Assembly: GCF_037094495.1 (NCBI RefSeq)
Contig: NZ_CP146612.1
Span: 372,001 to 436,000, forward strand
Length of the DNA stretch: 64,000 nucleotides
Origin: Dehalogenimonas sp. W
GTDB taxonomy: Bacteria; Chloroflexota; Dehalococcoidia; Dehalococcoidales; Dehalococcoidaceae
Direction: 5' to 3'
Both the position numbers and the translations under genes were made by a program. Below are positions 6,950 through 38,376 of the stretch, piece after piece; the stretch's first letter is position 1, and each line of letters starts with the position of its first letter. Under the pieces are notes generated by a model that did no database searches, had not been told where the DNA came from, and saw nothing but the letters and a program-made list of their open reading frames with translations.

Positions 6950-7789
6950 TTAGTCGGTGCGGAAAGTCACCGCCAACACACCGGGGCCGCCGTGGGCGCC
7001 CAGCACCGGACCAATCCGGGCGAGGTGAATCTTGTCCATGGGAACGAATTCGGCCAGCCGTTTAACCAATGCTTTGGCCTCATCCGGCGTAGTGGAATGC
7101 ACCACCGATAAGTCAACGATACTGTGGCCGGCGTTTTTGACCAGATCAACCAGTCGTTCAACCCCTTTGTTCCGGCTTCTGACCTGGCTGACCGGCACAA
7201 ATTCACCGCCCTGAATATCCAGCAACGGCTTAACGTTCAGTACGGAACCCATCAGCGCCTTGGCCCGGCCGATGCGGCCGCCGCGGGCAATGTATGTCAA
7301 GGTATCAAAGAGAACTAACAGGGTGATTTTAGTGACGGAGTCGCGGGCGGCAGCGGCTACCGATTGGAGGTCGTAACCGGCCTGAGCAAGGCGGGCGGCG
7401 GTCAGGGTTACCAGACCGGTAGCCATGGAAATGAAAGTAGAGTCCACTATTTCCACCGGCACCGGGTTTTTCATCATTTTGGCCCCCTGCCGGGCAGAGG
7501 AAATGGTGCCGCTCATTTTCTCCGAAAGGTGGACAGAAACGATACCATCAGCCCCTTCAGCGATACGGTCAAAGGCATCGGCAAAGTCCTGGGGCGAGGG
7601 CTGGGCGGTTGTCGGATGAACCGGACCGTTCTGCAAGCGGGAGTAGAAATCATCCTCGGTAATATCCACCCGATCCCGGAAGGAATCAACGCCGAACTGG
7701 ACATACAACGGAATGGTGGTAATATCAAATTGAGCAGCCAGCTCCGCCGGAATATCAGCCGTGGAATCAGTAACAATCTTGACGACCAT
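6950..7789 (-). CDS. DegV family fatty-acid-binding protein
   Basis: The 279-residue protein has the DegV signature at its start (KIVTDSTADIP), the SxKxxGTxxS-like loop EKMSGTISSARQGA around residues 89-102, and a C-terminal GPVLGAHGGPGVLAV. DegV/FakB proteins bind a single fatty acid; in bacteria with FakA they present it for phosphorylation so it can enter phospholipid synthesis. No fakA is seen in this window. The ATG is preceded by AGGAGGAG seven bases away. It is a monocistronic gene between the efflux operon and the helicase. Confidence 0.94.
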   Translation of the reverse strand: MVVKIVTDSTADIPAELAAQFDITTIPLYVQFGVDSFRDRVDITEDDFYSRLQNGPVHPTTAQPSPQDFADAFDRIAEGADGIVSVHLSEKMSGTISSARQGAKMMKNPVPVEIVDSTFISMATGLVTLTAARLAQAGYDLQSVAAAARDSVTKITLLVLFDTLTYIARGGRIGRAKALMGSVLNVKPLLDIQGGEFVPVSQVRSRNKGVERLVDLVKNAGHSIVDLSVVHSTTPDEAKALVKRLAEFVPMDKIHLARIGPVLGAHGGPGVLAVTFRTD

Positions 7790-7884
7790 GGCAAAACTCC
7801 TCCTCGCCTCGGCAATATTGCCTCAGTATAGCGTAGAAAGAGCTTATTGCCTAGTAAAAGTTGCGAATTATTACCCCGGAGGAT

Positions 7885-9144
7885 TTAACTGTTGGCCGGC
7901 CGCTGCGGGCGGCGGTTCCGCCGGAAATTATAGGGCGTCCCGTCCCCGACCGGGCGCGGCGGTGCCGGACGGCGTTCGGGGCGGCGAGTCTCATAAGCGC
8001 CCGCAACGCGCGGCGGTGCCGGCGCGTTATACTCAAACCCCTCAACGGTGCGGCGTTCAATTGAGGTTTTCAACAGCTTTTCCAGTGACCGCACCATCGG
8101 CTCATCTTCCGGACTGACAAAGGTAAAGGCATCGCCGGTGCGGCCGATGCGGCCGGTACGGCCGATGCGATGGATATAAGCGTCGGAGGTGTCCGGCATA
8201 TCGTAGTTGATGACGTGGGAAACATCGGAGACGTCAATACCGCGGGAAGCGATGTCGGTGGCCACCAGCACTTTGTAGGTGCCGTTTTTGAAGCCGTCCA
8301 GCGCCGCCTGACGGCGGTATTGCGACAGATTACCCTGAATAGAGGCGACTTTGTAACCCGCCTGCCCCAGGGCAATGGCGACACGTTCCGTTCGGTGTTT
8401 GGTCCGGGTAAAAACCAGCACCGAACCGGTTTCAATCTGCTGTAATATAATTTTAAGCAGACCGGTTTTCAGGTCCTGCCGTATCGGATAAAGGGCATGG
8501 GATACGGTGACCGCCGGCGCCACGGTGCCGATCTGCACTGTCACCGGGTCAGTCAGTATCTGGGTGACCAGCTTTTTAACATCACCGGGCATGGTGGCGG
8601 AAAATAACAGCGTCTGACGTTCCCGCACCAGACATTTCAGTATCTTGTGAATATCCGGCAGAAAGCCCATGTCAAACATGCGATCAGCTTCATCAATAAC
8701 CAGCATTTCCACGTTATTGAAGTCAATAGTCCCCTGCCAGACATGGTCCAGCAGACGTCCGGGGCAGGCAATGACGATATCCATGCCGGCACGCAACTTG
8801 GATTTCTGCGCTTCCATGCCGACGCCGCCGTAAATGGCCATACTCCGGAGGCCGGTGTGCCGGGACAGGGTCTTCACGGTATCATAAATCTGTTCCGCCA
8901 ATTCCCGGGTGGGCGAGATAATCAGGCCTCTTAATTTGCCGCGCTGACCGCGCAACAGTTTCTGAAGCATCGGCAGGACGAAGGCGGCGGTTTTGCCGGT
9001 GCCGGTCTGGGCCAGCCCGATCAGATCCCGGCCTTCCAGTGCCGGCGGAATGGCCTGAGCCTGGATAGGCGTCGGGGCAGTGTAGCCGGCGGATTTGACC
9101 CCGTCCAACAGGGCGGGGTGCAGGTTAAAAGATTCAAAACTCAT
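7885..9144 (-). CDS. DEAD-box ATP-dependent RNA helicase (RhlE-like)
   Basis: The 419-residue protein has all the DEAD-box motifs in order: a Q motif with F upstream (TAPTPIQAQAIP), Walker A AQTGTGKTAAF, PTRELAEQ, the DEAD box VIDEADRMFD, SAT (FSATMP), and the C-terminal domain with ATDIASRGIDVSDVSHVINYD and HRIGRTGR. The C-terminal tail (about 365-419) is rich in Arg and Pro, typical of RhlE-type helicases and likely RNA-contacting. It probably remodels RNA during ribosome assembly, decay or cold growth. A candidate promoter lies about 150 bp upstream of the ATG, leaving a long leader. Confidence 0.95.
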   Translation of the reverse strand: MSFESFNLHPALLDGVKSAGYTAPTPIQAQAIPPALEGRDLIGLAQTGTGKTAAFVLPMLQKLLRGQRGKLRGLIISPTRELAEQIYDTVKTLSRHTGLRSMAIYGGVGMEAQKSKLRAGMDIVIACPGRLLDHVWQGTIDFNNVEMLVIDEADRMFDMGFLPDIHKILKCLVRERQTLLFSATMPGDVKKLVTQILTDPVTVQIGTVAPAVTVSHALYPIRQDLKTGLLKIILQQIETGSVLVFTRTKHRTERVAIALGQAGYKVASIQGNLSQYRRQAALDGFKNGTYKVLVATDIASRGIDVSDVSHVINYDMPDTSDAYIHRIGRTGRIGRTGDAFTFVSPEDEPMVRSLEKLLKTSIERRTVEGFEYNAPAPPRVAGAYETRRPERRPAPPRPVGDGTPYNFRRNRRPQRPANS

Positions 9145-35203: not shown

Positions 35204-35234
35204 AAAGCCGCCGGGTGAATCACCCGGCGGCTTT
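35204..35234 (+). terminator. clpC terminator
   Basis: A perfect 14-bp stem (aaagccgccgggtg / cacccggcggcttt) with a 3-nt loop, 34 bp after the clpC stop, ending in a short T stretch. Confidence 0.8.
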
Positions 35235-35257: not shown

Positions 35258-35286
35258 TTGACATCCCTGTAATGCGGGCATATAGT
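35258..35286 (+). promoter_or_regulatory. Promoter of the zinc-ribbon cassette
   Basis: Perfect TTGACA (35258-35263), exactly 17 bp, TATAGT (35281-35286). The start near 35293 gives a leader of about 23 nt before the ATG at 35316. One of the strongest promoters in the window. Confidence 0.7.
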
Positions 35287-35315: not shown

Positions 35316-36746
35316 ATGAAACGCCTGATTCCCAAATCGTTGGTTGTTCTTATTGCCTGTATATTCGGTCTTATCCCCCTGTCGCTCAGCGCCGCCGCTT
35401 ATGATTTTGCGATACAGGATGTCATGTCGGGAGGGATACCAGGAGTTAACGCCGTAGTTAATGGCTCAGGAAATGGCTACTACGGACAGTCTTTACAAGC
35501 GACCTTTAATAACGCCACCGGGAACACCTACCACATAAAAGTCCCCATCGGACTGGCCATGGTCCCGCAGAATGTCGTAACTCAAACGATGTACACCGCC
35601 GGAGCCGAAATTATCACTGTTCCGCCCGGCACCAGCCAGAGTCTCATCATCGCCTTCTGCGGAGAACAACATGATTCCGGACCCAGGCGCTCAGACATTT
35701 TTTCACCTGGCGATATGGCCACAGGCAGTTTACTTCAAACATTGGAGAATATAAACCGGTCAGGGGAATTCGGCAGTACTGCTCAGCATGCCGTCTGGCA
35801 TCATACCGATGGTTATGACATATCCGGTGATGAGGCAGCCACGGAGTTGGCCCAGGGGTTTGGCTCTCTCGGGACCACCGCGGCCGCTGGTCTGGCGGCA
35901 GCGGCCCTGGCCGTTGGGGCCGCTTTGTTGGGAAATCGCTTTGAAAGATACCCAGAAACAAGTGCTTCAGGAGGGTCAGACCCGTACTTTGTTTCCGCCG
36001 AAGAGACCTTCGGCGATAGCTATATCACCGGTGCGTCGGGTGATAACCTGCCACCGGAATTACGGCCACCGATTGAAATTGCCGCGATACCGCCGCCGGA
36101 GGACCCTGCCGAAGGGATACTGATTGCGGGCGGGGATGATGGCTTTTTTGAAACCCTATTTAATTTGGTACGCCAAGGCGGCCAAATGGAGGTAAAGCCC
36201 CCGGCAGTGCGCCCGGCAATCTTCGGCCCGCCGCCACCAGAAGATGAGAGTTTCTGGGAAATGGTCCAACGTATTACGCGGTGGGGACAAACCCAAACAC
36301 CTGAAGAAAGGGAAGCGCAGGATGAAGCTGATGCGCACGGAGGACAGGTCCTACGGGATAATGCGCCTTTGGGCAGCGGCGGTAAACTCAACCCTGCCTT
36401 ATCGGGCAATAGTCCCGACCAACTGGTTCGCCAAGTCAATAGAGAAAAGTGGGAGGAAGGCGCCACGGAAGGCATCAGGATTATTCGCCGGTTGATGAAT
36501 TTAACATCGCTGGCCAACTCCCAGGGAGGCAGCAGAGACACCTCAGGATTTGCCAATATCGGACGGGATCTGGTAGAGCCAGATGCTCGGGGGCTAATTG
36601 ATATGACCGGGGTTTACCAGAAGGACGCTGCCGCTCATCAGGCTTGGAACGAATTCTATGATAAATACGGCTCGGTTCCCGACCCCGATAACCAAAGCGA
36701 TGTTCATAATTTCATGAACATTCTCAATCGGTTCAAAGGTCACTGA
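35316..36746 (+). CDS. Secreted, membrane-anchored protein of unknown function (cassette gene 1)
   Basis: A 476-residue protein. A signal peptide (about 1-27, VLIACIFGLIPLSLSAAA) is followed by an exported domain of about 160 residues that looks mainly beta-sheet (residues 30-115, FNNATGNTYHIKVPIGLA) with one cysteine (AFCGEQHD). A single Ala/Gly-rich membrane helix lies near 188-207. The last 265 residues would be cytoplasmic: low complexity, rich in Pro, Gly, Asp and Glu (IAAIPPPEDPAEG, FGPPPPEDESFWEM), ending in a helical part. I recognise no family. It is the first gene of four in the same direction; the next starts two bases after its stop. Topology suggests a surface sensor or anchor. 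Confidence 0.85.
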   Translation: MKRLIPKSLVVLIACIFGLIPLSLSAAAYDFAIQDVMSGGIPGVNAVVNGSGNGYYGQSLQATFNNATGNTYHIKVPIGLAMVPQNVVTQTMYTAGAEIITVPPGTSQSLIIAFCGEQHDSGPRRSDIFSPGDMATGSLLQTLENINRSGEFGSTAQHAVWHHTDGYDISGDEAATELAQGFGSLGTTAAAGLAAAALAVGAALLGNRFERYPETSASGGSDPYFVSAEETFGDSYITGASGDNLPPELRPPIEIAAIPPPEDPAEGILIAGGDDGFFETLFNLVRQGGQMEVKPPAVRPAIFGPPPPEDESFWEMVQRITRWGQTQTPEEREAQDEADAHGGQVLRDNAPLGSGGKLNPALSGNSPDQLVRQVNREKWEEGATEGIRIIRRLMNLTSLANSQGGSRDTSGFANIGRDLVEPDARGLIDMTGVYQKDAAAHQAWNEFYDKYGSVPDPDNQSDVHNFMNILNRFKGH

Positions 36747-36748
36747 AC

Positions 36749-37243
36749 ATGTCAAACAAAAGCCGACAAGAAGTTTGTATACCAGCCCCCCGCTGTTTTC
36801 AACCAATTGAAGTGCAAACTATATTTCACACTCTTTTCCAGGCCCACAGAAAGGGAAAGTTTACATTCCGGGAGTTGGGCGAAGCCTTGAAAGCACTTCG
36901 ATTCTACGACAGTCAGAGAACGGTGTGGACTATCGGCGCCGGTTCAGGGAAATGGTACCGACTGGTAAATAATCAGTGGCAAAGCGACGGTACACCGGCA
37001 GGAGAACTGGTGGCAACCATTCAAAAAGGGTGGCAGCATTATATGTCAACACTGGATCAAGGAGCCAGATGCCTCAAATGCGGTCATGGCCTGCCGGATT
37101 CTGCTCGTTTCTGCCTGAATTGTGGCACGACGGCCATTGTCCGAACCGAGACCGACAGAACTACGGTTTTCTGCCGTCATTGCGGAAGTCGTCTGGCGGC
37201 AGAGGCCAGGTTCTGCAATCACTGTGGGCAAGAGAGACAGTAA
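36749..37243 (+). CDS. Double zinc-ribbon protein with N-terminal WxIGxxxGxWYR domain (cassette gene 2)
   Basis: A 164-residue soluble protein. Residues 18-95 hold a small domain with FTFRELGEALKALRF and VWTIGAGSGKWYRLVNNQW. Its aromatic-rich pattern resembles short input domains of other zinc-ribbon proteins in Chloroflexota and Actinobacteria (from memory). The C-terminus has two complete zinc ribbons: CLKCG/CLNCG and CRHCG/CNHCG. The start is two bases after gene 1 and the stop is one base before gene 3, so they are co-translated. Function unknown; double ribbons often scaffold protein contacts at the membrane. Confidence 0.82.
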   Translation: MSNKSRQEVCIPAPRCFQPIEVQTIFHTLFQAHRKGKFTFRELGEALKALRFYDSQRTVWTIGAGSGKWYRLVNNQWQSDGTPAGELVATIQKGWQHYMSTLDQGARCLKCGHGLPDSARFCLNCGTTAIVRTETDRTTVFCRHCGSRLAAEARFCNHCGQERQ

Positions 37244-37244
37244 T

Positions 37245-37910
37245 ATGTTGAATACCGTAATGTTAATCGCCGGATACGCCTCTATACCACTCGTCCTGTT
37301 ATCGGTCTTTGCAATGATGAGAACGATCGGCAAACCACGGCCATTAATGGTAACCGGATTGATTGCCCAGATATTATTCAGCGCTCTGTTTTTGCTGCTT
37401 TACCGTTTCCTGCTCAATCTGAGTGAACCTACGCTTCTTTCCTGGGGACTGCTGGGCATAGGCCTGTTTGGCGGGGTTTTCCAGGGGTTTACCACAAAAA
37501 TCAACATCACCGGTGATAAGATTACCGCCAAAAGGTCTGTCATATATCTGATTATCTGGGGCGTGTCCTTCAGTGCGACCCAGGCTTTGGCAATGCTGGG
37601 CCAGGATACCATCGCAGCTTACGGCCTTTCATCGGTATATCTAGCGACCGGAATCGCCATTGGAATGAACGCCACTTTATTGGTCAGGCGTCTATTGACC
37701 GCCCCTGCCAATGTATCACCATCAATTCTGCAGGGGTCAATCTGCCCCAAGTGTGCTGTGTCCAATTCATCAACAAGAAAATTCTGCCGCAATTGCGGGA
37801 CGGCTCTGGGTTCGTTTACAGTCCCTGTCGGCTCATCGTGCCCAAATTGCGGACAGACGGCAACGCCGACCCAGAAATATTGTAATCATTGCGGCCGCAC
37901 ATTGCAGTAG
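37245..37910 (+). CDS. Polytopic membrane protein with C-terminal double zinc ribbon (cassette gene 3)
   Basis: A 221-residue protein with about five membrane helices (roughly 3-21, 30-52, 58-76, 95-113 and 120-142), followed by a linker and two zinc ribbons (CPKC/CRNCG and CPNCG/CNHCG) to the end. I start at ATG 37245, one base after the gene 2 stop (TAATATG); the frame is open upstream within gene 2, but that part has no domain. Not recognised as a named family. The same ribbon type in genes 2, 3 and 4 suggests the three proteins pair through these modules. Confidence 0.8.
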   Translation: MLNTVMLIAGYASIPLVLLSVFAMMRTIGKPRPLMVTGLIAQILFSALFLLLYRFLLNLSEPTLLSWGLLGIGLFGGVFQGFTTKINITGDKITAKRSVIYLIIWGVSFSATQALAMLGQDTIAAYGLSSVYLATGIAIGMNATLLVRRLLTAPANVSPSILQGSICPKCAVSNSSTRKFCRNCGTALGSFTVPVGSSCPNCGQTATPTQKYCNHCGRTLQ

Positions 37911-37929
37911 TCATTTACGGAGGAATAGT

Positions 37930-38376
37930 ATGCGCTGTCCCAGGTGCCAATCGATAAATGAAGCCGGATCCGGTTTCTGCGGAAACTGCGGGGCTAAACT
38001 TGAAATTGTTCCGCCGGCTCCACCGGCGATGAAGGCTGTATCACAGATCTACTGCCAAAGGTGCGGAAAAGGCAATCCTGCCGCGTCCAAATTCTGCGAA
38101 AGTTGTGGTTCAGCGATGGGCCCGTTGCCCGAATCTATCCCGAGCGCCGGCAGCATGCAGAATAACAAAACCGGCCATCCTTCCGGGGTCTGGTGGCTGT
38201 TACCGATATTATTTGGCTGGTTGGGCGGTATTATCGCCTGGGCGGTGATAAAAGAAAGTAATGGGGGCAGGGCTCGGCAGATGTTGGGGTTGGGATTTTT
38301 TATAACTTTTCTATGGATTGGTGTCGCCTTCATGCTGTCAGGCGGTCTTGCATTATCTGATTTCAGTTTTGACTAA
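37930..38376 (+). CDS. N-terminal double zinc ribbon, two membrane helices (cassette gene 4)
   Basis: A 148-residue protein with the reverse order of gene 3: two zinc ribbons first (CPRC/CGNCG at 3-20 and CQRCG/CESCG at about 42-60), a Pro/Ser-rich linker, then two membrane helices (about 85-105 and 118-140). The ATG at 37930 follows GGAGGAATAGT; the frame is open back to 37711 within gene 3, but no domain lies there. Membrane proteins with N-terminal zinc-ribbon pairs are common and mostly uncharacterised. It lies 19 bp after gene 3 and ends the cassette, which runs into the convergent purQ. Confidence 0.85.
   Translation: MRCPRCQSINEAGSGFCGNCGAKLEIVPPAPPAMKAVSQIYCQRCGKGNPAASKFCESCGSAMGPLPESIPSAGSMQNNKTGHPSGVWWLLPILFGWLGGIIAWAVIKESNGGRARQMLGLGFFITFLWIGVAFMLSGGLALSDFSFD

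Follow-up and report, generated by a model that had tools for sequence, protein, structure and literature searches.

A cassette of four genes at positions 35,316 to 38,376 of the Dehalogenimonas sp. W DNA analyzed here (64,000 nucleotides, positions 372,001 to 436,000 of contig NZ_CP146612.1; hereafter the window) is a real, co-inherited, and lineage-restricted unit. Gene 1 encodes a secreted, single-pass surface protein, and genes 2, 3, and 4 each encode a protein with two zinc ribbons. Tentatively, and with slightly more doubt than confidence, we read the cassette as specifying an envelope receptor or anchor complex in which gene 1 is wired through its cytoplasmic tail to zinc-ribbon adaptors.

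In such a complex, a single Ala/Gly-rich transmembrane (TM) helix would hold the compact ectodomain of gene 1 outside the cell, and the cytoplasmic tail would bear a proline motif. Gene 2 would be the soluble adaptor; the other two, genes 3 and 4, would be membrane-embedded zinc-ribbon proteins. These proteins would bind at the tail motif and, within the membrane, beside gene 1, where they could hold several gene 1 copies together or pass the state of gene 1 inward. The ectodomain would recognize something outside, be it a surface, a neighboring cell, or an envelope component. It is the binding among the four proteins, the use of the tail motif as a docking site, and the outside recognition by the ectodomain that we infer here. 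That the genes act as one receptor or anchor unit is suggested by their common order and near-identical spacing amid changing neighbors and by their all-or-none presence in the genus. The role itself is suggested by an ectodomain that is 60% invariant and is modeled with a predicted local distance difference test (pLDDT) score of 90.6 and by a tail motif that is 86% invariant, both of which favor the initial annotation of gene 1 as an outside sensor or anchor. Docking of zinc-ribbon proteins on the tail is suggested by the topology of gene 3, whose loops obey the positive-inside rule and thereby predict a cytoplasmic place for its ribbons, on the same side as the gene 1 tail. Lastly, the scheme draws on the recurrence at other loci (L045, L046, L059, and L072) of a protein with signal peptide, ectodomain, TM helix, and tail beside a multi-TM protein that mostly carries ribbons.

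A co-inherited and lineage-restricted cassette

The four genes are co-oriented on the plus strand with intergenic gaps of 2, 1, and 19 bp and stand behind a sigma-70-like promoter, so that the coordinates, gaps, and promoter of the initial annotation are all reproduced here. All four are real genes, because their open frames are intact in four or five genomes and third codon positions vary most. The promoter is the top site of its region, over the length of which chance alone would yield about three weaker promoter-like sites.

35204..35234, no strand: terminator-like hairpin of 14 pairs, between the upstream clpC and the cassette promoter
35258..35286, +: sigma-70-like promoter TTGACA-N17-TATAGT, 11 of 12 consensus bases, a consensus match only
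35316..36746, +: gene 1, 476 amino acids, secreted single-pass surface protein
36749..37243, +: gene 2, 164 amino acids, putative soluble adaptor with a W..G..GxWYR..W domain and two zinc ribbons
37245..37910, +: gene 3, 221 amino acids, about five TM stretches, then two C-terminal zinc ribbons
37930..38376, +: gene 4, 148 amino acids, two N-terminal zinc ribbons, then two TM stretches

Whole-genome searches found full-length gene 1 in 4 of the 11 genomes of the family, all of them in the genus of the window. The other seven lack gene 1 and gene 3 alike, and genes 2 and 3 occur in the four gene 1 genomes and in no other searched genome of the family. No other full-length gene 1 was returned by a search of 294 genomes of the class. 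A scan of GTDB contigs added a fifth copy, in a metagenome-assembled genome from another family of the order (locus L017), in which one extra zinc-ribbon gene, encoding 371 amino acids, lies between genes 1 and 2. The order 1-2-3-4 is kept in all five genomes. Within the genus, the cassette is present all or none, and its gaps in the four genomes are 2/1/19, 2/1/19, 3/0/26, and 3/1/27 bp.

The neighbors of the cassette, judged from translated frames, differ between genomes. The flanking genes are clpC and purQ in the window; in genome G010, they include a DAHP synthase-like gene, with purQ-purL two genes off, and in genomes G004 and G009 they are trypsin-like proteases and a peptidase-like gene. 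The cassette therefore occupies at least two genomic sites. The view that the four genes form one unit thus holds up, given the shared order and the joint absence of genes 1 and 3 from the same seven genomes, and the observation that was to count against it, a neighborhood conserved nowhere else, is not what we find. Co-occurrence in order across many genomes had also been expected; the order does hold wherever gene 1 is present, but the complete cassette was found only within the order Dehalococcoidales. Two tandem trypsin-like proteases, recognized by eye, were also seen directly upstream of the cassette at L027:11084-12872 and L028:4598-6386.

The surface protein encoded by gene 1

Gene 1 is predicted to have a signal peptide, an ectodomain, and one TM helix, in agreement with its earlier description as secreted and single-pass.

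35316..35396, +: signal peptide, residues 1-27, with a hydrophobic stretch at 9-27; cleavage site inferred
35397..35858, +: ectodomain, residues 28-181, in which about six strands precede three helices; an undescribed domain family
35583..35585, +: Gln90, within the [VT]QTM[YF] motif; unchanged across the five close members
35658..35660, +: Cys115 (AFCGE), invariant in the five close members, Ser/Thr in distant ones
35784..35798, +: QxAVW helix motif, Q157-W161, with Q, A, and W invariant family-wide; site of a sub-threshold TED (PF08341) match
35862..35933, +: Ala/Gly-rich TM stretch, residues 183-206, followed by N-R-F-E-R
36045..36110, +: candidate docking motif NLPPELRPPIEIAAIPPPEDPA, residues 244-265, 86% invariant (flanks 11% and 21%)

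No significant family match to gene 1 was found in Pfam or NCBIfam. The copy at L017 aligns with the gene 1 of the window over residues 1-181 only, at 48% identity. In a more distant Chloroflexota genome, three lipoproteins in tandem matched the ectodomain with an hhalign probability of 93%, and a profile that includes them recruited further members. In the resulting alignment of 17 sequences, G, P, G, and Q-x-A-x-W are kept in all. An AlphaFold model of the ectodomain from this alignment is confident (the pLDDT given above; predicted template modeling score 0.85) owing to the added distant Chloroflexota members, as the model from the five close sequences alone is poor (pLDDT 55.4). The model has no significant fold match in PDB or BFVD, a result that does not show the fold to be new. 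In the libraries searched (Pfam, PDB, and BFVD), the gene 1 ectodomain is an undescribed family.

Related sequences of this family were seen at L023 and L060-L071 (genome G540 and relatives) as one to three lipoproteins of 211-217 amino acids without the cysteine of gene 1, in tandem where there are three. Weak matches at L015 and L016 fall around profile positions 177-260, and those at L022, L024, L025, and L044 were judged to be noise. No sequence relatives of the ectodomain were found among plasmids, phages, or viral contigs, and a plasmid search that used a distant ectodomain relative was equally negative. A search within the small family of genome G172 yielded no further locus.

The cytoplasmic part of gene 1 is only 28% invariant among the four genus members. 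Because residues 244-265 form a short motif conserved amid this variable tail, they are a likely candidate docking site. The motif is also the part of gene 1 to which the earlier description of a Pro-rich cytoplasmic half applies, with 36% proline in its 22 residues versus 9% for the tail overall. Very long versions of gene 1, which share a conserved C-terminal region of 310 residues, were observed at L017:5456-8992 and L045:1-1209; the long L017 protein has no match in Pfam.

Zinc-ribbon proteins encoded by genes 2 to 4

The six ribbons of genes 2, 3, and 4 have the form CxxC-N10-CxxC, and the Pfam models Zn_Ribbon_1 (PF13240) and DZR (PF12773) score above their cut-offs in all three proteins. 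Two ribbons per protein, C-terminal in gene 3 and N-terminal in gene 4, had been annotated from the outset and are recovered here; those of gene 2 are C-terminal as well. The expectation that genes 3 and 4 are membrane-bound is borne out by about five and two TM stretches, respectively, but the topology of gene 4 is ambiguous.

36803..37000, +: gene 2 tryptophan-motif N-terminal domain, common to other Chloroflexota proteins
37070..37123, +: gene 2 ribbon 1, C108-C125
37172..37225, +: gene 2 ribbon 2, C142-C159
37743..37796, +: gene 3 ribbon 1, C167-C184
37839..37892, +: gene 3 ribbon 2, C199-C216
37936..37989, +: gene 4 ribbon 1, C3-C20
38053..38106, +: gene 4 ribbon 2, C42-C59
38194..38337, +: gene 4 two-TM hairpin with the basic loop KESNGGRARQ

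These proteins resemble others of the Zn_Ribbon_1/DZR type in having two such ribbons each above cut-off, but the cassette ribbons are fused to a tryptophan-motif domain (gene 2), a five-TM domain (gene 3), or a two-TM hairpin (gene 4), and all are in one operon behind gene 1. The gene 2 domain was found outside the cassette genomes in 8 of 197 sampled genomes of the phylum, in some as a short ribbon protein near FtsK-like genes and in others as the N-terminal part of a membrane protein. The matches near FtsK-like genes, which belong to another Chloroflexota family, are at L081, L084, and L086, the last being a short protein with a zinc ribbon. An assignment of gene 3 to CcdC/DUF1453 (PF07301) was considered and set aside, as the gene 3 of this genome gave no match and L017 only a weak one (E 0.0076, below cut-off). 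As to a role in anti-phage defense, neither genes 1-4 nor two L017 proteins matched a PADLOC model at E 0.1.

Related loci and competing explanations

Relatives of gene 3 were found at three more loci. At L045, the contig of which begins inside gene 1, a gene 1 tail with 46% identity to that of L017 is followed by a 373-residue homologue of the extra L017 gene (34%) and then by gene 3. At L046, a secreted single-pass protein (7037-8146) with a different, small cysteine-rich ectodomain precedes a 206-residue zinc-ribbon protein, which has a weak DUF2299 match, and then gene 3. Further out in the phylum, at L059, a gene 3 relative comes after a secreted protein. A gene-1-like protein beside a gene-3-like multi-TM protein is thus a recurrent arrangement in Chloroflexota, with ectodomains, tails, and adaptors exchanged.

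A related arrangement is seen at L072: directly after a multi-TM protein with zinc ribbon and FHA domain comes a distant relative of the ectodomain that has a TM helix of its own. The surrounding cluster (G784:C220, 454-16909) contains frames that, by eye, look kinase-like and PP2C-like, as well as VWA proteins including a secreted one. It also holds a protein of tubulin-like type (PF13809, E 1e-61) and a second unassigned protein of large size. The zinc ribbon-FHA system of L072 and L073 is like the cassette in placing a multi-TM zinc-ribbon protein beside a secreted, distant ectodomain relative (single-pass in L072). It differs in the FHA domain of the partner and, in L072, in the PP2C-like, VWA, and tubulin-like genes nearby, none of which is present in the cassette.

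Several observations sit poorly with a receptor or anchor complex. The ectodomains of L072/L073 are only remotely homologous to that of gene 1 (hhalign probability 55%), and the gene 3 relative of L059 has no ribbon. The basic loop between the two TM stretches of gene 4 would, by the positive-inside rule, place its ribbons outside, such that these may lie on either side of the membrane. Lastly, the match among the ribbons of genes 2-4, by which the initial annotation has them build the assembly, is unsupported. Outside the cysteines, ribbon identity is 51% for the same position across genomes and 30% for different positions within a genome; the latter is near the background of 27%, so matching within a genome lacks sequence support. 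The pattern looks like six specialized ribbons and shows no trace of homogenized pairs.

This absence of matching speaks for a loose neighborhood, in which a fast-evolving accessory surface protein and three generic zinc-ribbon proteins would have a promoter in common and not act jointly. Double zinc ribbons are common, and the first domain of gene 2 occurs in many unrelated Chloroflexota proteins. Such an explanation is nevertheless unlikely, as the genes keep their order and spacing and are present or absent together even where the flanking genes differ. It is also possible, if unlikely, that the cassette serves trafficking or assembly, with gene 1 as a cargo for insertion or export and the zinc-ribbon proteins, such as gene 2 and the 371-residue protein of L017, as chaperones and assembly factors. 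At L017, the gene 1 tail is about 950 residues long and is immediately followed by the 371-residue protein, and both the tail end and the follower are kept at L045; the 206-residue ribbon protein of L046 occupies the same place. On the other hand, the gene 1 signal peptide is ordinary, and no chaperone or secretion family was matched in Pfam, NCBIfam, or PADLOC.

A more specific proposal is that gene 1 is a covalent surface adhesin. Its ectodomain would be a rearranged thioester domain; a putative internal thioester between Cys115 and a glutamine, most likely Gln90, would react with amines of a target surface, and genes 2-4 would anchor and regulate the protein. Thioester domains are defined by [YFL]C, by Phi-Q-x-Phi-Phi with the reactive Gln, and by a TQxxPhiW helix, the Gln of which is not the reactive one (PMC4450167, PMC6194298). 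For each of the three signatures, gene 1 has a counterpart that does not vary among the five close members (FC115, [VT]Q90TM[YF], and Q157xAVW). Cys115 is the only ectodomain cysteine in each of these five, always in AFCGE, and the local sequence IAFCGEqHDsgP resembles IAFCxDHxKxxP of real thioester domains. The predicted fold of about six strands and three helices is as described for class I thioester domains, and a class II domain (6fwy) is among the structural matches of a second-look list, but with a VIA Z of 4.0 over 95 residues, a value that unrelated folds reach as well. PF08341, scanned against 21 genomes, matched in three of them, each time at the QxAVW helix of gene 1 and below the cut-off (E 0.08-0.5; best 13.9 bits versus 22). 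In hhalign comparisons with seven thioester domains of Bacillota plasmids (class II-like only), the probability stayed below 1.5%, both for the native order and for each of the 26 circular permutations. Membership in TED by profile was rejected on these scores, and homology of the ectodomain to thioester domains is not supported.

The motif order also differs, being Q-C-QxxW here and C-QxxW-Q in thioester domains; no conserved Gln lies between the ectodomain helices and the TM helix, and the candidate Gln90 precedes Cys115. The residue before the Q of the helix motif is A rather than T. Distant family members lack the Cys, with Ser or Thr instead, and mostly lack a counterpart of Gln90. A thioester of the alpha-2-macroglobulin CGEQ type was discarded as well, since two of the five close members have Lys in place of its Gln. 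In comparison with the Gram-positive TED/TIE adhesins (SfbI, pLS20 gene 34), gene 1 is likewise secreted and shares the FC cysteine, the QxxPhiW helix, the Phi-Q-x-Phi-Phi motif, and a small beta part with three helices. It differs in motif order, in having no significant profile or structure match, in a cysteine that is missing from distant relatives, and in being TM-anchored with a long cytoplasmic tail and no LPXTG or isopeptide stalk seen. The rearranged thioester adhesin is thus improbable, and we regard as more doubtful still the full picture of an anaerobic Chloroflexota lineage with a TM-anchored, zinc-ribbon-scaffolded protein that attaches covalently to its target via a predicted Cys115-Gln90 thioester. 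If true, it would place thioester surface chemistry outside the Gram-positive adhesins in which it has been described so far.

Literature searches on thioester domains and Chloroflexota, on Dehalogenimonas zinc ribbons, and on zinc-ribbon/FHA clusters returned no paper on the cassette. Little is known about surface machinery in this branch of Chloroflexota. With its undescribed ectodomain family, one invariant cysteine, and a clear candidate docking motif, the compact, self-contained unit offers testable handles on how a surface protein may be wired to the cytoplasm. Zinc ribbons, moreover, are suggested to be recurrent assembly modules around such surface proteins across the phylum.

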